Assembly (NCBI RefSeq): GCF_014323705.1
Contig: NZ_JABVEC010000017.1
Span: 1-64,000, forward strand
Source: Actinomadura alba
GTDB taxonomy: Bacteria > Actinomycetota > Actinomycetes > Streptosporangiales > Streptosporangiaceae
DNA: 64,000 nucleotides
Direction of reading: 5' to 3'
Shown: positions 19,206-32,719 of the stretch, piece by piece
How the letters are laid out: each line of letters begins with the position of its first letter
How positions within the stretch are numbered: the stretch's first letter is position 1
Notes under the pieces: generated by a model
Told to the model about the DNA's origin: nothing
Databases searched by the model: none
The model's input: only the letters and a program-made list of their open reading frames with translations
Made by a program: the position numbers and the translations under genes

Positions 19206-19614
19206 TGTTTACCCCCGAAATAAGAAGGAATGGCGCGACTATGCTGCGTCATACATATTTCATATCTGTTGCCTGCTCGTATCATCGCTGAGAAACACGG
19301 CTCCCGCCACCCTGAACCACCCCCTGAGCTGCGGCGGACCGCCCAAGGCTGTTGCCGTCGCGGCAGCGGTTCAGCGAGCGGGCCGCCGTTGTCGATCACG
19401 ACCGAGCGGTCATGAACGGTGCCGATGCCCGCCGGTTCCGAGCCGTCGGCCGGCCGTCCGCCCGGCCTCTTCCGGCTCGGCACATTCGATCGATCGGTGG
19501 TCCGGTTCGGCTTTCCCACCAGGGCCCCCGCGGCACGGAACGGCCAAGAACACGGCCAAGAACATGGACAGAAAACCTTACGCCGAGCGTTACTGCTCGT
19601 TAGGGTTGCTGCCC
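19206..19614. other. 409-bp spacer between ACT gene and GrpE/Hsp70 set
   Basis: No gene is supported here. The left end is unusually AT-rich (ccgaaataagaaggaatgg, catacatatttcatat) and probably carries the ACT-gene promoter. Near the right end are two direct copies of cggccaagaaca (about 19541-19563) and a small hairpin CGAGC-6-GCTCG (19584-19599) just ahead of the GrpE-like gene. I saw no HAIR- or CIRCE-like heat-shock operator. Confidence 0.6.
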
Positions 19615-20202
19615 GTGTCGAGTGCACAGGATCCGCCTGCCGAAGAGGGGCCCGCCGACATCGACGGGGTCATGGCGGAGCTCGGCGAGATCGGCTCGGC
19701 GCTCGCCGAGCTCACCCGGATGGTCGGCCGCGACAGCGAGCGCGCCGCGCACCGCGAAGCGATCATCGACCGCTTGCACGAGGACAACCAACTGCTGCGC
19801 CGAGGCGAGCTGCAGGCCATGTACGAGCCGGTGCGCGCCGCCCTTTACCGCCTGCATGACATGACCAAGCGCGAGTCCGAGCGCTGGGCGGCGCCGGAGC
19901 CGCCCGATCCGGTCCACATCGCGCCGCTGCTGGCCGCCGTCACCGACGAGATCGCCGAGGCGCTCGCCCGCTCCGGCGTCGAGCGCTTCACCGTCGAGCC
20001 CGGCGACCTCTACGACCCCGCGCGGCACCGGCCGGTCGCGACCGAACCGGTCGACCGGCCCGAACTCGACGGCACCGTCGTCAGCGCCCGTACGGACGGT
20101 TTCACCCGTTGTGAACGGGTCGTACGGCGCGCCGAGGTCGTCGTCGCTCGGTTCAAGTCCGACGACCGTGAGAACATCTCGCCTGAACCCGACCCCGAGT
20201 AG
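19615..20202 (+). CDS. GrpE-like nucleotide exchange factor
   Basis: 195-residue protein. Residues 1-75 are acidic and coiled-coil forming (DIDGVMAELGEIGSALAEL, then REAIIDRLHEDNQLLRRGEL). The C-terminal part matches the GrpE beta domain: LDGTVVSARTDGFTRCERVVRRAEVVVAR. It should catalyse ADP release from the Hsp70 encoded nine bases downstream. I chose the GTG at 19615; an in-frame ATG at 19564 would add 17 residues that do not look conserved. The middle (ERWAAPEPPDPVHIAPLLAAVTDE region) differs from housekeeping GrpE, so this is a dedicated partner and not the general GrpE. Confidence 0.82.
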   Translation: MSSAQDPPAEEGPADIDGVMAELGEIGSALAELTRMVGRDSERAAHREAIIDRLHEDNQLLRRGELQAMYEPVRAALYRLHDMTKRESERWAAPEPPDPVHIAPLLAAVTDEIAEALARSGVERFTVEPGDLYDPARHRPVATEPVDRPELDGTVVSARTDGFTRCERVVRRAEVVVARFKSDDRENISPEPDPE

Positions 20203-20211
20203 GTGGAAAAG

Positions 20212-21795
20212 ATGGCTGTCTACGGGATCGACCTGGGCACGACGTACTCGTGCATCGCCTCCATCGACGAAGTCGGCCGCCCCACGGTCCTGCGCAACCT
20301 CGAGGGCACCGACACCACACCGTCCGTCGTCTACTTCGAGTCGGGCGACAACGTCGTCGTCGGCGCCGCGGCCAAGGACACCGCCGTACTCGAACCGGAC
20401 AACGTCGTCAGCCTGATCAAACGGGACATGGGCCGCGACCTCACCCGGCCGGTCCACGGCTTCGAGTACACCCCCGAGGAACTGTCGGCGTTCATCCTGC
20501 TCAAGCTGGCCACCGACGCACGCACCACCACCGGCGAGGACGCCCGTGACGTCGTCGTCACGGTCCCCGCCTACTTCGGCGCCGCCGAGCGCGACGCCAC
20601 CCGCAAGGCCGGCCGCATCGCCGGGCTGAACGTCATCGACATCATCTCCGAGCCGATCGCCGCCGCCATCACCTATGGCGTGCTCAACCCGGAGCAGGAC
20701 CGCACGATCCTCGTGTACGACCTCGGCGGCGGCACCTTCGACACCACGGTCATCGCACTCAAGGGCGGCCACATCGAGGTGGTCTGCACCGACGGCGACC
20801 ACGAGCTCGGCGGTGCCGACTGGGACGAGCGCCTGGTGGAGTACCTCGCCGAGCGCTTCCGAGCCGAGCACCCCGACGCGGGCGATCCGCTCGACGACAA
20901 GCAGACCGAGCAGCAGCTCCGCCGCGACGCCGAGGAGGCCAAGAAGGCGCTGACCTCCCGTACCCAGCACACCGTGCGGGTGATGCACGAGGGCCGGGTC
21001 GCCGCCGTCGAGGTCTCCAGGGAGAAGTTCGAGGAGATCACCAAGGACCTGCTGGACCGTACGGTGGAGATCACCGGCCGCACCCTCGCCACCGCGAGCG
21101 AGAAGGGCGTCTCCGACTACGACGACCTCGTGCTCGTCGGCGGGTCGACGAAGATGCCCGCGGTGGCCGCCCGGCTCGAGACCGAACTCGGCCTGCCGCC
21201 CAAGCTGCAGGACCCCGACCTCGCGGTGGCCAAGGGCGCCGCCCTCTACGCCTTCGAGGAGACGTTCCGCAGGCTTCTGCTGCAGGGCGCAGAGGAGCGG
21301 GCCGAGGAGATGGCCAGCCGGGCCGGGCTCTCCGCCGAGCAGCAGCGTCAGATCGCCAACCGCCAGATCAAGACGGTGGCCTCGCGCGCCTTCGGCATCG
21401 TGGTGCTCGACCGGGCCAACAACCTCGAGCAGGTCGCCCATCTGGTGCACGCCAACGACGAGCTGCCCGCGGCCCGCACCGAGGACTTCTTCACGGTCAA
21501 CGACGACCAGACCGCCGCCGACGTGCGGGTGATGGAACAGGCGGGTGCCGCCGAGTCGGCGGAGGTGACCGACAACACCGAGATCGCCACCGGGGTCATC
21601 AAGGTGCCGCCGGGCAAGAAGGCGGGCTGGCCCATCGAGGTCACGTTCGCGCTCGACGCCTCCGGCCTTCTGCACGTCACCGCAGTCGAGAAGGAGACCG
21701 GCGAGCGGCTCGAGCTGACGGTCGACGTGGGCGGCATGTCCGAAGAGGACGTCGAGCGCTCCCGCGCGGCCCTGTCCCGCGTCCAGGTGAGCTGA
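20212..21795 (+). CDS. short Hsp70-family ATPase chaperone
   Basis: 527-residue Hsp70. The ATPase domain is complete: phosphate-1 GIDLGTTYSCIA, connect-1, phosphate-2 VYDLGGGTFDTTVI and adenosine motif LVLVGGSTKMPAV. The substrate-binding beta-sandwich follows (FGIVVLDR to LLHVTAVEKETGERLELTV), but the sequence ends soon after, so the long helical lid of DnaK is missing. ATG at 20212 with AGGTGG five bases upstream. No DnaJ gene is present in the cluster. Together with the GrpE-like protein it forms a dedicated Hsp70 switch, presumably acting on the products of the next four genes. Confidence 0.92.
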   Translation: MAVYGIDLGTTYSCIASIDEVGRPTVLRNLEGTDTTPSVVYFESGDNVVVGAAAKDTAVLEPDNVVSLIKRDMGRDLTRPVHGFEYTPEELSAFILLKLATDARTTTGEDARDVVVTVPAYFGAAERDATRKAGRIAGLNVIDIISEPIAAAITYGVLNPEQDRTILVYDLGGGTFDTTVIALKGGHIEVVCTDGDHELGGADWDERLVEYLAERFRAEHPDAGDPLDDKQTEQQLRRDAEEAKKALTSRTQHTVRVMHEGRVAAVEVSREKFEEITKDLLDRTVEITGRTLATASEKGVSDYDDLVLVGGSTKMPAVAARLETELGLPPKLQDPDLAVAKGAALYAFEETFRRLLLQGAEERAEEMASRAGLSAEQQRQIANRQIKTVASRAFGIVVLDRANNLEQVAHLVHANDELPAARTEDFFTVNDDQTAADVRVMEQAGAAESAEVTDNTEIATGVIKVPPGKKAGWPIEVTFALDASGLLHVTAVEKETGERLELTVDVGGMSEEDVERSRAALSRVQVS

Positions 21796-21799
21796 GTCC

Positions 21800-22161
21800 A
21801 TGGCCTCGCTCCGCTCGGCGGTTCGCGGGCGCCTCGTCGCGCGGTCTTCCCTCGTCACGTGCTCGCTCGTACCTCGCTCCGCGCGCTCCTCAGTCCAGAC
21901 CGCGCGCGCCCGCTCAGAGCCCATGGCCTCGCTCCGCTCGGCGGTTCGCGGGCGCCTCGTCGCGCGGTCTTCCCTCGTCACGTGCTCGCTCGTACCTCGC
22001 TCCGCGCGCTCCTCAGTCCAGACCGCGCGCGCCCGCTCAGAGCCCATGGCCTCGCTCCGCTCGGCGGTTCGCGGGCGCCTCGTCGCGCGGTCTTCCCTCG
22101 TCACGTGCTCGCTCGTACCTCGCTCCGCGCGCTCCTCAGTCCAGACCGCGCGCGCCCGCTC
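21800..22161. repeat. 123-bp tandem repeat, three identical copies
   Basis: Three head-to-tail copies begin at 21800, 21923 and 22046. The first two are identical along their length and the third matches them until about 22161. The unit is 41 codons, so all six frames stay open or closed together, and apparent long reading frames across it are artefacts. It contains several short inverted elements (gcgcggtct/agaccgcgc; gagcgg/ccgctc). It fills almost the whole gap between the Hsp70 gene and the Fn3-like gene. Confidence 0.97.
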
Positions 22162-22190
22162 ACGGGGGCATATTCGATAAGGGGATCGGC

Positions 22191-24863
22191 CTGAACTTCG
22201 ACGACCACTACAAGCGGGAGGTCCTCGAACCGGCGCGCAACGCCGGGGACCAGCCGCCAGAGGATCTGCGGGTGCGCTACCAGCTGCGCGACCCGCTGTC
22301 CCCTCAGGACGTCGCGGCTCAGGTCAAGCTGGTGCGGCAGTGCTGGCGCCGGGCCCGCGGCCAGCTGAAGTACCGCAAGCTCATCGACCGGCTCGAAGCC
22401 GAGCACCGCGAGCTCGCGCCCGTCTTCGCGGCCGCCGAGCGCGGTGACGCCGGCCCGTTGCGCGCCCGGCTGCGCGGCGGCACGGAGCGCACGGAGCGCC
22501 GGCGGTCCGACGCGAGGGCACGCCTGCTCGACGCCGCCGGGCCGCTGCGGCTGCTGTCGCCGGGCGACCTGGAGGCCATCGCGCGGTCCAGCGGCTTCGC
22601 CCGCGCAGAGCTGGAGTCGTTCCTGACGACCGAACGCGTCGAGGTGCGCGAACCCGACCCGCTCCCGGCGTCCGCGCCGTACCAGGGTTATCTCAAGGCG
22701 CGCGAGTCCCTCGCCGTGCTGGGTCACCGGCATCTCGCCGACTTCCTGTTCGGCGCGCGGCTCACCGGTCCGATGCGGGTGATGGGCGGTTTCCAGGCGC
22801 CCGGAGTGCGGCTGGACGCATCGGTGGTGGCGTCCGTGTCCGCCGACTGGGCCCGGCGGCCGAGGGACACCAGCTCCACCAACGCCGAGACGGTACTGGC
22901 TGCGCTGCGCTCGGCCCTCGGCGGCGACACCGGCGACGGCGCGCGACTGGCCGAACTGGTCCGGTACGACCTCGTGGACCGGCTGCGGGAACGGCACCGG
23001 CAGCGCGCCTCCGAACGGGCGCTTCTTCGGTACGCCGTCGACGGCCTCGGCATCGAGCCGGGTGAGGCCAGGCGCCTGGTCTTCGCCGTGCTGAGAGAGA
23101 GCGGCCCGGCGGGCGGCCTGGCCGGGCGGCTGCGTGAGCTGCTCGACGCCGGCGCGGTGCACGCCGCGGCCCTGCTCGCCGACTCGGCCCTCCCCGCCGC
23201 GGGCGAGGCCGAACGGGCCGGTGCGCAGAGCGCGGCACGGCGGGAGGCCGAGAGCGCCGAGGTACTCGCGGCCGAGGCGCGTGAGCGGCTCTCCACCGCC
23301 GTCAGGCTGCGCGATGAGGCCGTGGAATGCCCCGACCCGGACCGGGCGTGGCGGCTGCTCGCCGACGCCCTGCATCTGGTCCGCGACCTGCCCGGTGCGG
23401 AAGATCACCAGCGACGGCTTCCGCCGCGGCCGGTCGCGGAGGCCGCCGCCACCGTCGACGCCGGTGGCACGGCCGTGCGCCTGAGCTGGAGCGAGTCACC
23501 GTCGAAGGTGGGTGACATCGGCTACCGCGTCGTACGCCGGCGCGGCCGGCCACCGCGCGACTCGGCGGACGGCGAGATCATCGCGAGCAGCGGCACGGGC
23601 GCCTACGACGGCCGCCCGCCGGTCAACGTGCCGCTCTTCTACGCGATCATCGCCCGGCGGGGCGACACGGCCGCGGCCCCCGCGGTGGCCGGTCCCGTCC
23701 TGGTACGGCCGGAACCGGCCGAGGTGGAGCTCGTGGCCGGCGACGGGGTCGTCACGGGCCGGTGGCGGTGCCCGCCCGCGGCCGCCCGGGTGCTCGTCAC
23801 CCGCGACGAGGCCTCGGTGGACCTGCCGAGGGTGGTGGTCCGGGCCGACCGTGAGGGCTTCCGCGACGCGGTCAGGAACGGGACGACCTACCACTATCGC
23901 GTGGCCGCCGTCTATCTCGACGAGTCCGGCCGTGAGGTGACGACCCCGGGTGTACGGGTGTCCGCCAGCCCGAGTGCGCCGCCCGAGCCCGTGGCCGGGT
24001 TCACGCTGGAGCCCGATCCGGGCGAGGCCGGCCGGCTGCTCCTGGGCTTCGACCCGCCCCGGCGCGGCACCACCGAGTTCGTCCTGCTCGCCGGTCCGCC
24101 GCCCTGGCCGCACGGCACCGTCGTGCCGCTGGCCGAGGTGCGCCGGGCGGGCCGGGCCGTACCGGCGACGCCGACCGCGAACGGGCTCGCGGTACGTCCC
24201 GGCGCGAGCGGGGTGCTGCTCGCCGTCACCGTCTCGGGCGAGGCGGCCGCGGTCGGGACTCACCGCCGGCACGTGAACCTGCCGCCGCCGAGCAATGTCG
24301 TCGCGCGGCGCCACGGGGCGACGGTGCACGTCGGTTTCGACTGGCCGCCCGACGTCGCCGAGGTCGAGCTCACCTACCAGGTGGGCGGCTCCGATCCACG
24401 CCGAACTCTGATCACCCGGGCCGCCTACGAGGCGCAGGGAGGGGTGCGGCTGGCCGCGCCCGAGACCCGGCAGGTCGACGTACTCGTGGCCTCGAGTGGC
24501 ATGGGCGGCGAGGCCCGCGTCGTCGGCGCGCCGGTACCCGTGATGGTGTCCCCGCGATCCCTCGTGGACTACGACCTGCGCCTGACCGGGCCGCCCTGGC
24601 GCCGCACCCTCGTGGTGGCGCTCCGGTCCGAGGAGCCGGTGCGCGTCCCGCGCCTGCTGCTCGTGCTGCGCGAGGGCCGCGTGATGCCACAGCACCCGGG
24701 CGACGGAGATACCGTCGCGTCCTGGGACGAACTGGAGGTTCCGGTGGAGCTGTCGTTGCCGCATCCCCGGCGGGCCGGGTCGTTCTGGCTGCGCTGCTTC
24801 GCCGCCGATGATGAGATCGAGCTGAGCGACCCACCGGTCCGCCGCCTCCAGATGAAGGGCTGA
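22191..24863 (+). CDS. large protein with Fn3-like domains, component of the Hsp70/GTPase set
   Basis: About 890 residues. The N-terminal half (1-415) is alpha-helical and charged, rich in Arg/Glu/Ala (ERAGAQSAARREAESAEVLA), with no enzyme motif. The second half holds three or four beta-sandwich repeats of fibronectin-III type, e.g. GTAVRLSWSESPSKVGDIGYR, RVLVTRDEASVDLP and TTYHYRVAAVYLDESG. There is no signal peptide or membrane segment, so it is cytosolic and probably a scaffold. The best start is a CTG at 22191 with AAGGGGA upstream (NFDDHYKREVLEPAR follows); a GTG at 22272 also has a GAGGA. Its stop is 2 bp from the GTPase gene. Confidence 0.75.
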   Translation: MNFDDHYKREVLEPARNAGDQPPEDLRVRYQLRDPLSPQDVAAQVKLVRQCWRRARGQLKYRKLIDRLEAEHRELAPVFAAAERGDAGPLRARLRGGTERTERRRSDARARLLDAAGPLRLLSPGDLEAIARSSGFARAELESFLTTERVEVREPDPLPASAPYQGYLKARESLAVLGHRHLADFLFGARLTGPMRVMGGFQAPGVRLDASVVASVSADWARRPRDTSSTNAETVLAALRSALGGDTGDGARLAELVRYDLVDRLRERHRQRASERALLRYAVDGLGIEPGEARRLVFAVLRESGPAGGLAGRLRELLDAGAVHAAALLADSALPAAGEAERAGAQSAARREAESAEVLAAEARERLSTAVRLRDEAVECPDPDRAWRLLADALHLVRDLPGAEDHQRRLPPRPVAEAAATVDAGGTAVRLSWSESPSKVGDIGYRVVRRRGRPPRDSADGEIIASSGTGAYDGRPPVNVPLFYAIIARRGDTAAAPAVAGPVLVRPEPAEVELVAGDGVVTGRWRCPPAAARVLVTRDEASVDLPRVVVRADREGFRDAVRNGTTYHYRVAAVYLDESGREVTTPGVRVSASPSAPPEPVAGFTLEPDPGEAGRLLLGFDPPRRGTTEFVLLAGPPPWPHGTVVPLAEVRRAGRAVPATPTANGLAVRPGASGVLLAVTVSGEAAAVGTHRRHVNLPPPSNVVARRHGATVHVGFDWPPDVAEVELTYQVGGSDPRRTLITRAAYEAQGGVRLAAPETRQVDVLVASSGMGGEARVVGAPVPVMVSPRSLVDYDLRLTGPPWRRTLVVALRSEEPVRVPRLLLVLREGRVMPQHPGDGDTVASWDELEVPVELSLPHPRRAGSFWLRCFAADDEIELSDPPVRRLQMKG

Positions 24864-24865
24864 GG

Positions 24866-26086
24866 ATGCGCGCGATCACCTGTCCGTACTGCTTCGCGGC
24901 GGTGCCCGCCCAGCGGATCGAGTTCCGCTGCCTCGGGCGGGCGGGTCGCGGGCCGGGCTGCGAGCCGGTGCTCGACCGCAGGCTCGCCGACTACACCGGG
25001 TCGGCCGCGGCCGCCTCGCTCCCACCGGTGTTCTCCGCGTCCGGCCGACGGGGCCGGGCCGCCTGCCCGGCCTGCGGTAAGCCCACCGGACGGCGGGTGT
25101 GCCCGGAGTGCCACAACCCCCTGCCGTCGGCCTACTGCGACACCCCGGGCCGGATCGTCGCGCTCGTCGGGGCCAAGAACGCGGGCAAGAGCACCTACAT
25201 CGCGGTGCTGCTGCACGAGCTGATGAACCGGATCGGCACCGAGCTCGACACCTCGCTGGTGGCCTGCGACGACCGCACCATCGACCGCTACAAGCGGGAC
25301 TTCGCGCGGCCACTGTACGACGAGCGGCGGCTGCTGCCGACCACCGCCAGCGCGGCGACGACGCCGCGCGAGCCACTGGTCTACCTCCTCACCCGGACGC
25401 GGCGCCCCCGCTTCGGACGGCTGAACCTCGGCGGCGGCAACGACGCGCTCACGCTGGTACTGTTCGACACCGCAGGCGAGGACCTGCGCAGCCGCGACGT
25501 GCGCGACCTGCACCTGCGCTATCTCGAGGCGGCCGACGCCGTCATCTTCCTCGTCGATCCGCTGGAGCTGCCCGGTGCCCGGGCGGCCCTGGTCGGCGGG
25601 GCACTGCCGGTCACCGCCGACGATCCCGACAGCGAGCCGATCAACGTGATCGCCCGGGTCACCGAGGCGCTCCAGGCGCGTCGTTCGGGCGACCGGCTGC
25701 GGATCCCGGTCGCGGTCGCCCTCACCAAGATCGACGCGCTGCAGCCCTCCTTCGCCCGCCAGTCGGCGCTGCACCGCTCCCGGCAGAGCCAGGGCGCCCT
25801 CGACCTCGACGACCGCGAGGCGGTCGACGAGCAGGTCCGGGCGCTGCTGCACGAGTGGCAGGCCGGACAGCTCGACCGCTACCTGCGCCAGCACTACCTG
25901 GAGTACGGGTTCTTCGGGCTGTCCGCGCTGGGGGGCATGCCGGGCGACGGCCGGGTCGGCGCGGGCGGCGTGCAGCCCTATCGGGCGGAGGATCCGCTGC
26001 TGTGGCTGCTGCACCGGTTCGGGATGCTCGACGGCGTCCGCGGCGCGGCGGCGAGCCCCTGGCCGGCGGCCGGAAGGAACGCGTGA
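24866..26086 (+). CDS. zinc-ribbon GTPase, soluble (double-GTPase family type)
   Basis: 406-residue protein. Residues 1-90 carry cysteine pairs of zinc-ribbon type (CPYC, CPAC, CPEC). A P-loop GTPase domain follows: G1 GAKNAGKST (about 101-109), G3 DTAGED (about 200) and G4 TKID (about 287), then an SALGG segment that may be G5. The NKxD-type TKID supports GTP over ATP. From memory it resembles the Pfam family named DO-GTPase2; I could not check this. No membrane helix is seen, unlike the paralogue at the end of the set. Gene spacing of 2-3 bp on both sides indicates cotranslation and a shared function. Confidence 0.82.
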   Translation: MRAITCPYCFAAVPAQRIEFRCLGRAGRGPGCEPVLDRRLADYTGSAAAASLPPVFSASGRRGRAACPACGKPTGRRVCPECHNPLPSAYCDTPGRIVALVGAKNAGKSTYIAVLLHELMNRIGTELDTSLVACDDRTIDRYKRDFARPLYDERRLLPTTASAATTPREPLVYLLTRTRRPRFGRLNLGGGNDALTLVLFDTAGEDLRSRDVRDLHLRYLEAADAVIFLVDPLELPGARAALVGGALPVTADDPDSEPINVIARVTEALQARRSGDRLRIPVAVALTKIDALQPSFARQSALHRSRQSQGALDLDDREAVDEQVRALLHEWQAGQLDRYLRQHYLEYGFFGLSALGGMPGDGRVGAGGVQPYRAEDPLLWLLHRFGMLDGVRGAAASPWPAAGRNA

Positions 26087-26089
26087 GCC

Positions 26090-28603
26090 GTGGCCTGGCA
26101 GCTGCACTACACCTCCGCGAAGTCCGGCCCGGACGGCCGGGCCGGCTTCCAGTTCGTCGCGGAGACCCCGGGGCTGCCGCCGGGCCTGCGCACCGCCGTG
26201 TCACCGCTCATGGTCTACCGGCCGCCACCGCACGCCCCGCTCTCCCCGAGCACCGACGAGCTGGCGCGGTTCCCGGTGGGGCTGGCCTACGACCGGCTGG
26301 ACGAGCGGCCCGTGCTGGTCCGGTGCCGCTACCTCGGCCGGGACTACTCCGGGCGGTACGGCAACTTCTTCGCGCACGCGGTGGTGGCCGACACCGCTGA
26401 GCTCGAGGGGCTGCGCCCGATGGAGCTCTGGCACGCCCCGCTGTGGGACGACGCCCCCGCGAGCGGGCTACTCCCGGCCCTCGACGAGCTCTCCCCCGGT
26501 GACGGCTTCGAACCCGACGCGCTCGCCGACTGGCTGGCCGACCAGTGGGACGTCGCGTCGACCTATGACCTGCTGGCCCGGCTGATCGACGCCGTCACCA
26601 CCGTCCTCGGGCGCGACCATGGCCGGATCATACTGGTCGCCGACGACACCGAGCTCATCGCGCGGTGGATCGCGGTCGTCTCGTACTCCCTGCCGGTGCC
26701 CGCCGCCGCGCTGATGTCGTTCATCACCTACAGCGCCGATCCGGGGGTGGCGCCGCAGCGCGTCGTCGGCACCACGCCCGATGTGTGGGAGACGACCCGC
26801 CACGACGGCCCCGTCTTCTTCGTCGACGCCCCGCACGCCATGGGCGGCCGCGTCGAGTACCACCGCGACACGGACCACCGCCTCGAGGACCACCGCGACG
26901 CGGGCGACCGCGCCGCACCGGCCGGCGAGTCACCGCGCGCCGCCCGGGGCCGCTACGCGCGGACGGCCGCGCAGTGCTGGCGCGATCTCAACTTCGCGGG
27001 GCTGGACGCGATGGGCGAGCTCGCCGACGCCGCGCTCCGCTCCAAGATCACGGCCCCGCTCGACGTCGTGCTCGACCGGGCCGCGGCACTGCTCGCGCTG
27101 TGCCAGGGCGACGAGACGGTGACGCCGGGCGAGGAGGCCGAGGCCGCCACGCTGCTGAGCCGGCACGGCGCCGACGTGCCCGGATGGGTCTGGCGCGACC
27201 TCACGCCGACGCTCCCCGGCATGGGCTTCGACCTGGCCGTTGCGATCATGAACTGGGCGGTGCAGGATCCGCACCTCGCCGAGCGATGCGCGGCCCGCTG
27301 TGTCGTGCTGGCGCTTCGCGACCCCGCCCTGCGCTCCCGGCTGCCCGACCTCACCCTGCCGGAACCCGCCCGCGACCGGCTCACCCCCATCGTCGAGGAG
27401 GCGCTGCTCACGGCACCCGACCTCACCGAGGTCGCGCTGATCGCCGGGCTGCTGGAGCGCGTCGGAGCCGACGTGCCCGGCCCCGGTGTCGAAGCGGCCG
27501 CCGTCGGATGCGCCCGGCGCGGCACCGCCGACCTGACCGCCGCCGTACGCCTCGTGCCCATGGCGGTGCGCGAGCCGCTCATCGCGGGCGCGCTCGCCGG
27601 GCTCGCCGCGACCGACGAGAGCACCCGTGCCGCGGTGCTCACCGACGCCGCCTGTGATCTGCTGTACGCGCGGAAGGCCCCGCGCCCGGCCAGGGCCCCG
27701 GTCGCGGACGCCGACACGACCCCGGACGCGCACACGGACGCGGCCCCGGCGGCGGATCCGGTCCCCGGCCCCGCACCGGCACCGCCGTGGCTGCCGGGAG
27801 CCGTCGCGCTGGACGTGCTGCGATCGGTCGGGCGGCGGCGCAGGGAACGGCGGATCGAGGTCACGCGGGTCCTGCTCGAACTCGCCGAACCCCGGTCAGC
27901 GGTCGAGGACGTACTGCACGCCGTGTGGGCCGAGCCGCCCACCGCCCGTGAGTGCCTCGCGGTCATCGACTCTTTCGGCGCCGCGCTCCCCCACTTCCGC
28001 TGCCTGTACGACCTGCCGTCGCGGGTGTTCACCCGGCTGGCCGAGAGCGGAGACGACCTCGACGCGCCGGACACCCTCGACCTCGCCCGGCGTACGCGCG
28101 AGGCGCTGACCGCCGACGACCGCCCGGCCGCCGACGCGGCCCTCGTCCAGGCCTATGCCTCGGCGGTGCGGGCCGGCGATGCCGCGGCGGCCGCCCTCGG
28201 GCTCGCCGACATCGACGTGGTGACCGGGGCGTCCACGCCGCTGACCGACTGCGTCGTCCGCTGCGCGGCGCAGCGCCTCGCGCTGCGAGCGCCACGGTTC
28301 CGCGCGGCGGTGCTGGCCGAGGCGCCCGCACCGGCCCGCGACCGGCTGGTGGCCGAGTGGACCGCCGGCAAGCACAGCAAGGCCGCGCGCAACGAGCTCA
28401 TGGAGGTCGCGATCCGGCTGCGCCGCCTCAGCGTGTTCCCCGAGGCGCTCGAGGCGTGGGCGGCCGGGCAGGCCGCCGGCCGGCTGTCGTATCTCCAGCT
28501 CGACGCCTGCTTCCGCCACGACCGCGACCTGCGGGCCGGGCTCAGGGAACTGCGCAGCCGGACTCTGGCGGCGCAGACCCGGCGTCAGCGGCGCGGGAGG
28601 TGA
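26090..28603 (+). CDS. GTPase-associated protein 1 (GAP1)-like
   Basis: 837-residue cytosolic protein. The N-terminus (QLHYTSAKSGPDGRAGFQFV, then GRYGNFFAHAVV about residue 90) matches what I recall as the GAP1-N2 domain, which is found only beside such GTPases. The middle (about 160-260, with GRIILVADDTELIARWIAVV) and the helical C-terminal half (about 400-830, ARM/HEAT-like leucine-rich helices) correspond to the GAP1-M and GAP1-C regions. An Ala/Pro/Asp linker lies near residue 550. No catalytic motif is visible. The GTG start follows GGAAGGA. It probably bridges or regulates the flanking GTPases; its biochemical role is unknown. Confidence 0.78.
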   Translation: MAWQLHYTSAKSGPDGRAGFQFVAETPGLPPGLRTAVSPLMVYRPPPHAPLSPSTDELARFPVGLAYDRLDERPVLVRCRYLGRDYSGRYGNFFAHAVVADTAELEGLRPMELWHAPLWDDAPASGLLPALDELSPGDGFEPDALADWLADQWDVASTYDLLARLIDAVTTVLGRDHGRIILVADDTELIARWIAVVSYSLPVPAAALMSFITYSADPGVAPQRVVGTTPDVWETTRHDGPVFFVDAPHAMGGRVEYHRDTDHRLEDHRDAGDRAAPAGESPRAARGRYARTAAQCWRDLNFAGLDAMGELADAALRSKITAPLDVVLDRAAALLALCQGDETVTPGEEAEAATLLSRHGADVPGWVWRDLTPTLPGMGFDLAVAIMNWAVQDPHLAERCAARCVVLALRDPALRSRLPDLTLPEPARDRLTPIVEEALLTAPDLTEVALIAGLLERVGADVPGPGVEAAAVGCARRGTADLTAAVRLVPMAVREPLIAGALAGLAATDESTRAAVLTDAACDLLYARKAPRPARAPVADADTTPDAHTDAAPAADPVPGPAPAPPWLPGAVALDVLRSVGRRRRERRIEVTRVLLELAEPRSAVEDVLHAVWAEPPTARECLAVIDSFGAALPHFRCLYDLPSRVFTRLAESGDDLDAPDTLDLARRTREALTADDRPAADAALVQAYASAVRAGDAAAAALGLADIDVVTGASTPLTDCVVRCAAQRLALRAPRFRAAVLAEAPAPARDRLVAEWTAGKHSKAARNELMEVAIRLRRLSVFPEALEAWAAGQAAGRLSYLQLDACFRHDRDLRAGLRELRSRTLAAQTRRQRRGR

Positions 28604-28606
28604 CGA

Positions 28607-30373
28607 GTGCAGGCCGTCTTCGTCGCGCTGCTGGTGGTCGTGTGGCTGGGTGCCATGTGGGTCGGGTTCGTGTTCGTCTTCCCTGTCGTGTTCTCCGTCT
28701 CGCTCGTCGCGGCCGCCGCGTGCGCGATCGGCTACTACTACGTGTACGCCTGCCGGGCCCTGGTGCCCGCCCCGGCCAAGGGCCTCGCACCGGTCGCGCC
28801 GCCCGGCTCGGCCCGTTCGCAGGGCGCCCCGGTGCCCGATCCGGCCTACCGGCACTACCTGCTGGCGCAGGTCTGGCGGGACCTGTGGGCGATCACCCGC
28901 GGCATCATGCCCAAGATCACTATGACCGCCACCGTCGCGCTCACGACCACCACGAGAACGCTCGTGTCGGGGATCTGGGGCTTCTTCACCTTCCCGCTCT
29001 GGCTGGCGATCTGCTCGGGCATCGTGCTCGCCGCCGTCCCGGCCGCTCTGCTCGGCGCGCTGCTCACCCTGCTGTACGCGGCGGTGGTGGCGGTCGGGCT
29101 GGCCGGATGGCTCGTCTGCGTGCTGGTGCTCGGCATCGTCGAACGGGTGTTCATGGCGTACGGGCGGATCCTGCAGACCTGTCCCCACCCGTTCTGCTAC
29201 GAGAAGGTCGCCCTGCCGGTGTACGAGTGCCCGGCCTGCGGCGAGCGGCATCGCAGGCTCGCCCCGAACTCCTTCGGCGCGGTCAGGCACGTGTGCCGGT
29301 GCGGCGCCCGGCTGCCGACCACCATCCCGCTCGGCCGGTTCCGGCTCACGGCCTACTGCCCCCACTGCAACGGGCGGCTGCCGGAGCGGATCGGCCGGGT
29401 GCGGGTCGAGCCACTGCCCTTCGTCGGCGGCCCGGCCGCGGGCAAGACCACGTTCATGTTCCTGGCGATCCGCGCGCTGCACGCTCGCGCCCGGGCCGCG
29501 CACGGCACCGTGACCTTCGTCGAGCGGCGGCACGCCCAGGCCTACGCCGGAGCGGTACAGGAGTTCCAACGCGGAGGGCGGCTGGCCAAGACCGGTCCGG
29601 AGCTGCCTCTCGCCACGATGGTCGACGTCGACCTGCCCGGCGCCGGCCACCGGATCCTCTACCTGTTCGACCCGGCCGGTGAGCACTTCACCGGTGCCAC
29701 CCTGGTCGAGTCGCTGCGCTATCTCGACCACGGCGAGGCACTGCTGTTCGTGATGGACCCGTTCGCGCTTCCGCAGGTGCGGCGGACCCTGACCGGCGAT
29801 GAGAACGAACTGGTCGAGCAGGCGGTCGCCTCGTCCGACGAGGATCCCGCCGACACCCTGCAGCGCGTGCTCAACGAGCTGCGATCGCGGCGCGACCGGG
29901 GCCGCCAGAAGCGCGTCGCGGTGGTCGTCACCAAGACCGACCTGCTGGCCCACACCATCGTCGGGCGCCACCTGGAGCACCCGGAGTCGGGTGCCGCGGT
30001 CCGCGACTGGCTGGAGGGCCTCGGGCTCGGCAACTCCATCCGGGCCCTCGACCAGCTCGCCGCCGAAGTGCGCTACTTCGGCTCGGGCCTGACGACCGAA
30101 CCGGCCCTGGTCGCCGAACTGCTCGGCTGGGTCACCGGGCTGCCGGTCGGCGACGGCATCGCGGCTCCGGCGGATACCGACCCCGAACTGCCGGGGCCCG
30201 AACTGCCGGGCACCGCCCCGCTGCGCGCGCCGTGGGAGGCCCGCGGCCGCGACGCCGCACTGGTGCCCGCGAGCTACCAGGCCGGCCGCTGGGCCATCCT
30301 CGCCGGCATGTCGGTCCTCACCATCGCCACCCTGGTGAGCACGGCCGCCTACGCCCTACCGCTGATCCGCTGA
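28607..30373 (+). CDS. membrane-anchored zinc-ribbon GTPase (double-GTPase family type)
   Basis: 588-residue membrane GTPase. Two hydrophobic helices at the N-terminus (about 3-48) and two more near 125-180 are followed by cytosolic zinc ribbons (CPHPFC, CPAC, CRC, CPHC; about 187-262). The GTPase domain has G1 GGPAAGKTT (about 273), G3 DPAGE (about 354) and G4 TKTD (about 442). A final helix lies at about 563-585. GGGAGG sits six bases before the GTG. It is paralogous to the soluble GTPase two genes upstream but tethered to the membrane. It probably marks the site where the complex assembles or acts. It ends the operon. Confidence 0.82.
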   Translation: MQAVFVALLVVVWLGAMWVGFVFVFPVVFSVSLVAAAACAIGYYYVYACRALVPAPAKGLAPVAPPGSARSQGAPVPDPAYRHYLLAQVWRDLWAITRGIMPKITMTATVALTTTTRTLVSGIWGFFTFPLWLAICSGIVLAAVPAALLGALLTLLYAAVVAVGLAGWLVCVLVLGIVERVFMAYGRILQTCPHPFCYEKVALPVYECPACGERHRRLAPNSFGAVRHVCRCGARLPTTIPLGRFRLTAYCPHCNGRLPERIGRVRVEPLPFVGGPAAGKTTFMFLAIRALHARARAAHGTVTFVERRHAQAYAGAVQEFQRGGRLAKTGPELPLATMVDVDLPGAGHRILYLFDPAGEHFTGATLVESLRYLDHGEALLFVMDPFALPQVRRTLTGDENELVEQAVASSDEDPADTLQRVLNELRSRRDRGRQKRVAVVVTKTDLLAHTIVGRHLEHPESGAAVRDWLEGLGLGNSIRALDQLAAEVRYFGSGLTTEPALVAELLGWVTGLPVGDGIAAPADTDPELPGPELPGTAPLRAPWEARGRDAALVPASYQAGRWAILAGMSVLTIATLVSTAAYALPLIR

Positions 30374-31972: not shown

Positions 31973-32719
31973 ATGCAGACTGGGATCACCGCCGATGACG
32001 TGGTGACGTTGTGGCGGCCTACCGGCCAGGCGGAGCTCGATCTCGTCGCCGCGTCGCAGTGGCGGGCGTGGCCGCCACGCCTGCCCGACCAGCCGATCTT
32101 CTACCCGGTGCTCAACCGGTGGTACGCCACGAAGATCGCTCGTGACTGGAACGTCCCCTCCGGCGGAGTCGGCTACGTCACGCGGTTCACCGTTCGCCGC
32201 GAGTTCCTCGACCGCTACGAAGTCCAGCAGGTGGGCGGGCGTGACGTGCTGGAGTACTGGATCCCGGCCGAGGATCTCGACGACTTCAACGCGAACATCG
32301 TCGGCGCGATCGTTCAGGAGGCCCACTACCGGGCCCCTGTGCCCGACGAGGAGTTCGCCGTCGCTGCCGAGACGCTCGGCCGCCCGTTGCCGGACGCCTG
32401 GCGGGCCTATCTGCAGAGCAGATCGTGGCTCTACCGCGGCTTCCTGCCGTCGGGCTGTTTCGTCTCCCTCAACACGCCACGGGAGATGCTCGAACTGCAC
32501 GACGCGTGGGAGCACGGCACCGAGGCCCATCCCGGCATCGCGATCATCGGCGGCGACGGCTCCAGAGAACAGTTCGCCCTCGACCTGCGCCAGGACCCCT
32601 CCCCGGTGCTGATGGTCGACATCACCAGCGACGGCTGGGACCCGGCGATACGGCAGGCCGACGACGTCGGCGTGTTCATCGAACGCATCGAATCCGGCAC
32701 GTTCGATCTCACCTGGTAG
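31973..32719 (+). CDS. two-domain protein: ADP-ribosylation/crystallin-J1-named N-terminus plus SUKH-like C-terminus
   Basis: 248-residue cytosolic protein. Residues 1-115 (TLWRPTGQAELDLVAASQWR, WPPRLPDQPIFYPV, GVGYVTRFTVRREFLDRY) belong to an actinobacterial family that databases label ADP-ribosylation/crystallin J1, though I see no catalytic site. Residues about 128-245 look like a SMI1/KNR4 (SUKH) domain (LPDAWRAYL, then IIGGDGSREQFALDLR). SUKH domains are often immunity proteins against contact-dependent toxins. It is a lone gene close to the Hsp70/GTPase set but on the far side of the propeller gene. The role is inferred only. Confidence 0.68.
   Translation: MQTGITADDVVTLWRPTGQAELDLVAASQWRAWPPRLPDQPIFYPVLNRWYATKIARDWNVPSGGVGYVTRFTVRREFLDRYEVQQVGGRDVLEYWIPAEDLDDFNANIVGAIVQEAHYRAPVPDEEFAVAAETLGRPLPDAWRAYLQSRSWLYRGFLPSGCFVSLNTPREMLELHDAWEHGTEAHPGIAIIGGDGSREQFALDLRQDPSPVLMVDITSDGWDPAIRQADDVGVFIERIESGTFDLTW

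Follow-up and report, generated by a model that had tools for sequence, protein, structure and literature searches.

Paired soluble and membrane-type DO-GTPases flank a GAP1 protein in a conserved operon of the HSP70/GrpE theme in Actinomadura alba

The window, a 64,000-nucleotide stretch of Actinomadura alba (contig NZ_JABVEC010000017.1), contains a six-gene operon on the forward strand that encodes, in this order, a GrpE-like protein, an HSP70-like protein, an FN3-like protein, a soluble DO-GTPase, a GAP1 protein and a membrane DO-GTPase (Table 1), the last four genes being separated by 2, 3 and 3 nt. Both GTPases matched Pfam DO-GTPase2 above the cut-off (5.9e-20 for the membrane and 2.9e-13 for the soluble protein), and GAP1 matched GAP1-N2 (1.1e-42) and GAP1-M (2e-20). 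The two DO-GTPase2 matches and the one GAP1-N2 match found in the genome (93.5% complete) at E≤0.001 all lie within the operon, with no further ones elsewhere. The HSP70-like protein stayed below the cut-offs of both the DnaK and the HscA models. Comparison of starts placed that of the GrpE-like gene at TTG 19606, as in relative L129, with ATG 19564 also possible. Among the operon proteins that were scanned, Pfam revealed no recognisable effector domain, and PADLOC returned weak matches only (best E 0.0017). DO-GTPase2 and GAP1-N2 were also matched above cut-off in the control genome of Corynebacterium glutamicum. Positions 31973-32719, downstream of the operon, gave a weak SUKH-type (SMI1_KNR4) match under the Pfam cut-off.

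Table 1. Coordinates of the operon genes and of the motifs discussed in the text
Feature	Position	Strand	Basis or remark
GrpE-like nucleotide exchange factor	19606..20202	+	Pfam GrpE 7.5e-10 (translation of 19300-20202)
HSP70-like protein, 530 aa	20203..21795	+	Pfam HSP70 2.4e-109
FN3-like component	22272..24863	+	Position in operon; homologous ORFs in relatives
Soluble DO-GTPase2, 406 aa, N-terminal zinc ligands	24866..26086	+	Pfam, motifs, hydropathy, alignment
G1 GAKNAGKS, soluble GTPase	25169-25192	+	
G3 DTAGE, soluble GTPase	25466-25480	+	
G4 TKID, soluble GTPase	25724-25735	+	
GAP1: GAP1-N2 aa 1-133, GAP1-M aa 148-238, helical solenoid about aa 288-837	26090..28603	+	
GAP1 loop G83-x-D85-x-S-G88-R89-x-G91-N92, candidate arginine finger	26336..26365	+	R89 codon 26354-26356
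Membrane DO-GTPase2, 588 aa, GTG start	28607..30373	+	Pfam, hydropathy, alignment, AlphaFold, structure search
Zinc ribbons, membrane GTPase	aa 191-260		
G domain, membrane GTPase	about aa 265-513		
G1 GGPAAGKT, membrane GTPase	29426..29449	+	
G3 DPAGE, membrane GTPase	29669..29683	+	
G4 TKTD, membrane GTPase	29930..29941	+	

A preliminary description of the locus had taken the two GTPases for paralogues that share zinc ribbons and G1/G3/G4 motifs. Besides the common Pfam family, BLASTP (26% identity, E 1e-11) and profile-profile comparison (99.9%, E 1.1e-35) confirmed the relationship, and all three motifs were located in each sequence. The zinc ligands of the membrane GTPase (C192, C197, C208, C211, C230, C232, C251 and C254) are invariant among 23 aligned membrane-type proteins, and seven of the eight zinc cysteines of the soluble GTPase (C6, C9, C22, C32, C67, C70, C79 and C82) are invariant or 90% conserved among 25 proteins, the exception being C67. 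The G3 motif indeed reads DPAGE in the membrane GTPase and DTAGE in the soluble one, both having the G3 (Walker B) glutamate of the GAP1-N2 system.

Hydropathy analysis (KD≥1.6) identified five segments in the membrane GTPase (residues 4-22, 25-43, 138-156, 160-178 and 563-581) and no hydrophobic segment in the soluble GTPase, in agreement with the earlier claim that N-terminal, internal and C-terminal membrane helices are confined to the second GTPase. On the GES scale the third segment fell at 123-141, and the P-loop strand was scored too. The segments previously called internal precede the zinc ribbons, so that the layout is four segments before the ribbons and one at the C-terminus. The AlphaFold model (mean pLDDT 76.3, pTM 0.60) has helices at these segments but displays residues 2-52 as one helix, in which two helices are likely merged. 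The loop 46-122 carries 8 Lys/Arg versus 2 Asp/Glu and the turns 23-24 and 142-155 are uncharged, a pattern that fits two hairpins with the zinc ribbons and the G domain in the cytoplasm, plus one C-terminal helix. Structure comparison of the G domain retrieved Rag/Ras GTPases (Z 11.8-13.2), with RagA-like 8yl2 on top (Z 13.2, 174 aligned, rmsd 3.3) and Ras-family rows, from Z 12.6 down, tied with it. Rag/Gtr GTPases have a roadblock domain after the G domain; here the AlphaFold model has, after the G domain, no more than a linker of low confidence and a single helix (aa 555-587).

To place the pair among its relatives, GAP1-N2 was searched in genomes of the same class and family, giving matches in 50/394 and 125/297 genomes, respectively. 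A first set of 68 regions, each of at most 20 kb, was fetched and contained, together with the window, 102 DO-GTPase ORFs, of which 100 were used after excluding two fragments of a split soluble gene in L120 from counts and tree. A named set of near relatives comprised 80 loci kept of 100 found (78/80 from Streptosporangiales); because the unnamed and named sets share genomes, distinct sequences were counted. In the tree of the 100 G domains, 49 membrane-type and 51 soluble-type copies, labelled by profile score, are split by one branch (SH-aLRT 98, in an unrooted tree made by a quick method with SH-aLRT only and with several long branches flagged). Labelling by hydrophobic segments instead requires two changes, due to L121, a mechanically called ORF of 970 aa, probably over-extended. 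With its single split, the tree does not support several independent duplications of the GTPase. At least one N-terminal segment was found in all 49 membrane-type ORFs and none in 50 of the 51 soluble-type ORFs, L121 again being the exception, and a C-terminal segment is present in 14/49 membrane copies, which are all 14 members of one clade. Pairwise distances of soluble and membrane partners (39 pairs) are correlated with r 0.93, compared with at most 0.20 in 2000 shuffles, a correlation that linkage and shared ancestry alone suffice to produce. As to phage carriage, 16 stretches in viral contigs matched the search pattern, none encoding a relative.

The same sampling bears on DPAGE, which had been put forward as a mark of the functional split. 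The G3 proline occurs in 27/49 membrane and 0/51 soluble copies of the first set and in 80/80 membrane-type and 0/72 soluble-type near relatives of the named set, and the G3 glutamate is kept in 44/49 membrane and 50/51 soluble copies. G3 in the membrane clade thus comes in several variants, DPAGE among them, and the glutamate persists in most; we rejected it as a functional switch and regard the proline as a lineage trait.

ORFs were called mechanically and many N-termini are over-extended; ordered by stop codon, the genes are arranged uniformly. The order soluble GTPase, GAP1, membrane GTPase was found in 72/72 named loci with all three genes on the contig. Among the remaining eight of the 80, L148 carries GAP1 plus a membrane gene that starts about 2.3 kb from the upstream end of the contig, and seven have the membrane gene alone, starting at most about 1.03 kb from that end. 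The membrane ORF follows the GAP1 end within 262 nt in 72/73 cases and after 1,218 nt in one, negative distances being due to over-extended ORFs. In the first set, with regions of at most 20 kb, nine (L091, L098, L100, L101, L105, L107, L109, L110 and L128) encode a soluble-type GTPase and GAP1 without a membrane type, and L097 encodes a membrane type and no soluble type, which indicates that the pair is not obligatory. Five of the 68 regions (L099, L102, L103, L104 and L106) join GAP1-N2 and a membrane-type G domain, with a G3 of DPDGD or DPDGR that has lost the glutamate, in a single protein; such fusions support contact between GAP1 and the GTPase, and fusions in these GTPase systems are also mentioned by Kaur et al. 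2020 (PMC7159879). The idea that the fusions lack a soluble partner had to be qualified, as each of the five genomes has, at another site, a further DO-GTPase-like ORF (364-377 aa), which scores slightly better as soluble type and has no GAP1-N2 or FN3 match near it in the fetched stretch. Tree and gene order together show that the proposed division into a membrane and a soluble GTPase with GAP1 encoded between them is real and conserved, and the further proposal that GAP1 bridges the two fits the five fusions.

The division itself is a rediscovery, since Kaur et al. 2020 (PMC7159879) had reported it: they named these proteins 'double-GTPases' because 38% of the systems hold two paralogues, described four N-terminal helices and one C-terminal helix in one of the pair, and proposed a role in conflict with invaders. 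The window operon shares with their GAP1-N2/HSP70-theme system the paired DO-GTPases, the zinc ribbons, the helices in one partner (five segments here, the first two merged by AlphaFold), GAP1-N2, GAP1-M, HSP70, GrpE and a protein at the FNIII place. It differs in having neither a Pfam-detected FN3 nor a recognised effector domain, and the C-terminal helix is here restricted to one membrane clade. What is added is the one-branch split of the paralogues, the constant order and DPAGE as a lineage variant. The window adds one further example of a system known since 2020; what makes it useful is mainly the constancy of its parts and their order. The GTPase pair and GAP1 probably form the switch module in a DO-GTPase system of the GAP1-N2 type and the HSP70/GrpE theme. 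The two GTPases, one soluble and one anchored in the membrane, stem from an old duplication and would pair as a heterodimer at the cytoplasmic membrane face, GAP1 would dock on the G domains and control the nucleotide state of both, and the HSP70, GrpE and FN3-like genes would supply a chaperone arm.

How GAP1 might act was approached from its predicted structure. The AlphaFold model (41 sequences, pLDDT 89.8) shows an alpha/beta N-terminus followed by a helical solenoid (residues 288-837); Pfam GAP1-C was not listed for the whole window protein (E≤0.1) and was listed in 14/50 relatives cut to about 346 aa. Within residues 1-100 the strand order is EE-H-EEE, which is the topology of a longin domain. 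In VIA-align, the first four rows were TagF (9t0n, Z 8.0, 227 aligned, rmsd 5.0), DENND1A-Rab35 (6ekk, Z 7.8, 246 aligned, rmsd 5.0), DENND1B-Rab35 (3tw8, Z 7.7, 240 aligned, rmsd 5.3) and DENND10 (8p0v, Z 7.4, 254 aligned, rmsd 6.3), the only ones among the best 50 to start at model residue 1, with the caveat that Z below 8 can reflect a common arrangement and that the list hardly tests residues before 344. Chains of FLCN complexes (6nzd, 6ulg and 8dhb) aligned to model residues 105-356 with Z 5.8, 5.7 and 5.3, and a designed helical protein scored Z 7.4 on the solenoid. Foldseek gave no match at E≤0.001, and its best 50 rows included neither DENN nor TagF. Pfam scans of 50 GAP1 members to E 10 found no DENN, FLCN or TagF_N, and a PDB search with GAP1 returned one match, which was meaningless. 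A relation to TagF by sequence was not supported either, the hhalign probability of 0.1 being at the level of two control pairs (0.1 and 0.3); the TagF_N profile had no match in the genome and none in the controls.

The most conserved arginine of GAP1, R89, lies between model strands 73-84 and 90-100, numbered beta4 and beta5. It is present in 135/137 proteins with a residue there (129/131 distinct sequences), the next best being R78 (109/138), and six of the twenty most conserved columns among 140 aligned GAP1 proteins (83, 85, 88, 89, 91 and 92) fall in this loop. R89 is lost in 3/8 GAP1 loci without a DO-GTPase match (L092, L108 and L125) and in 0/58 that have such a match (Fisher 0.0012, excluding L113, which its contig truncates). 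This test was post hoc, the three losses and 7/8 GTPase-less loci carry a single genus code (g36), and the contig of L092 measures only 6.6 kb. For DENN GAPs of the Avl9 type, a catalytic arginine has been predicted in the beta4-beta5 loop of the longin subdomain (preprint PMC12803157), Arg147 in the longin domain of SMCR8 is seen in the ARF1 active site (PMC8213707), and Arg164 in a longin loop of FLCN is named as catalytic (PMC7464330).

Two readings of GAP1 were weighed. It may be a scaffold only, its solenoid holding both GTPases and an effector and R89 being structural, a possibility that we rate somewhat short of even: the long solenoid, the fusions and the effectors described by Kaur et al. 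(PMC7159879) at the GAP1 C-terminus speak for it, while the position of the most conserved arginine in a hairpin loop between strands is left unexplained. The other reading, which would sharpen rather than oppose the switch module, is that a longin and a cDENN-like part make up residues 1 to about 330 and that the candidate R89 enters the G site of one or both DO-GTPases, speeding hydrolysis as longin/DENN GAPs do on Rag and Arf. The VIA-align rows from residue 1, the near-invariance of R89 at the site predicted for the Avl9 type and its losses in loci without a DO-GTPase point this way. On the other side stand Z values at a level open to unrelated folds as well, the lack of sequence support in the searches above and the clustering of the three losses within one genus code. 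The G3 residue here is Glu, where Ras-like substrates have Gln. In addition, the beta4-beta5 site was stated for the Avl9 type, and the multimeric FLCN/SMCR8 complexes are built differently (preprint PMC12803157). The longin/DENN-like N-terminus is therefore only weakly suggested by the model, R89 counts as a beta4-beta5 arginine only if the longin fold holds, and the proposal that GAP1 accelerates hydrolysis appears tentative; should it be true, GAP1 would, with the same reserve, switch the GTPases off.

Taken in full, the longin/DENN-like reading would make GAP1 a bacterial arginine-finger GAP on the GTPase pair, a counterpart of FLCN-FNIP on Rag with TagF as a distant relative and R89 as the catalytic residue, which is conceivable though on balance doubtful. 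In FLCN-FNIP/Rag and C9orf72-SMCR8/Arf, longin-DENN proteins, to which GAP1 has a weak fold match, act on small GTPases, the catalytic arginine is in the longin part, and the Rag pair is paralogous as the DO-GTPases are. However, no sequence relation was detected, GAP1 is a single chain with a large solenoid, and, unlike Rag and Arf, the DO-GTPases have a Glu in G3 and, in one of the two, their own membrane segments. Other paired related GTPases with one partner at the membrane, the SRP receptor and the Toc GTPases, belong to other families with other partners. To our knowledge, DENN-type GTPase regulators are confined to eukaryotes, and no prokaryotic one turned up in the literature searched. 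A longin/DENN reading of GAP1 was likewise not found in that literature, which covered few subscription papers, and in Kaur et al. 2020 (PMC7159879) the main text never mentions TagF, longin or DENN. 'GAP1' has so far been a name for 'GTPase-associated protein'; if the longin/DENN reading is true, a large orphan family gains a mechanism testable by one point mutant and DENN-type regulators are no longer eukaryote-only. TagF of type VI secretion, the top structural row for GAP1 residues 1-315, has an invariant D-x-x-G-R in 13 aligned sequences and differs from GAP1 in that no profile match and no solenoid were seen. In plasmid loci, tagF directly follows tssM in 10/10 annotated cases of 12 fetched (L221, L222 and L224-L231); tssM is annotated as a membrane subunit, so that tagF, like GAP1, is encoded beside a membrane protein gene.

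Whatever the action of GAP1, the operon might be a housekeeping module of envelope or stress functions and not a conflict system, which we consider possible, if rather less than even in likelihood. Its full six-gene order in 58/80 named loci, with the core in 72, would suit such a role, as would the finding that some psp operons, which are linked to membrane stress, include a DO-GTPase (PMC11237479). Its patchy occurrence in the family and class genomes searched argues against it, and of the four downstream genes two recurred only in L129 and the other two nowhere among the 80 loci (some of them truncated), which indicates that the genomic setting is not fixed.

A further reading, in which the soluble partner is the enzyme and the membrane GTPase an anchor with weak catalysis, is unlikely. 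The faster divergence of the membrane G domains (median pairwise-distance ratio 1.62, 39 pairs), a G4 Lys replaced by Arg in 9/49 membrane versus 0/51 soluble copies ([ST]KxD in 40/49 and 51/51, first set only) and loss of the G3 Glu in 5/49 versus 1/51 might suggest it, but few events are involved, the five Glu losses being the five GAP1 fusions of one clade and eight of the nine G4 Arg cases belonging to one clade, and G1, G3 Glu and G4 are intact in the window protein and its clade.

The FN3-like protein and its surroundings were inspected separately. A homologue follows the HSP70 gene in all 67 named loci with both called on the forward strand; the window protein had no Pfam match, and a scan that included 15 relatives gave no fn3 match and one weak TPR match. 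The conserved N-terminus runs upstream of the called GTG 22272 with no stop between, so the true start probably lies upstream, CTG 22191, preceded by AAGGGG, being a candidate. Between the HSP70 and FN3 genes, positions 21794-22162 consist of three tandem 123-bp copies, 99% alike. Rfam gave one match below gathering score around this repeat, and the unit folds no better than shuffles. The unit recurs as a dispersed repeat on both strands of the genome (95 candidates, 40 scored matches), in places as short arrays, and single or double copies occur in four other loci (L063, L167, L172 and L180).
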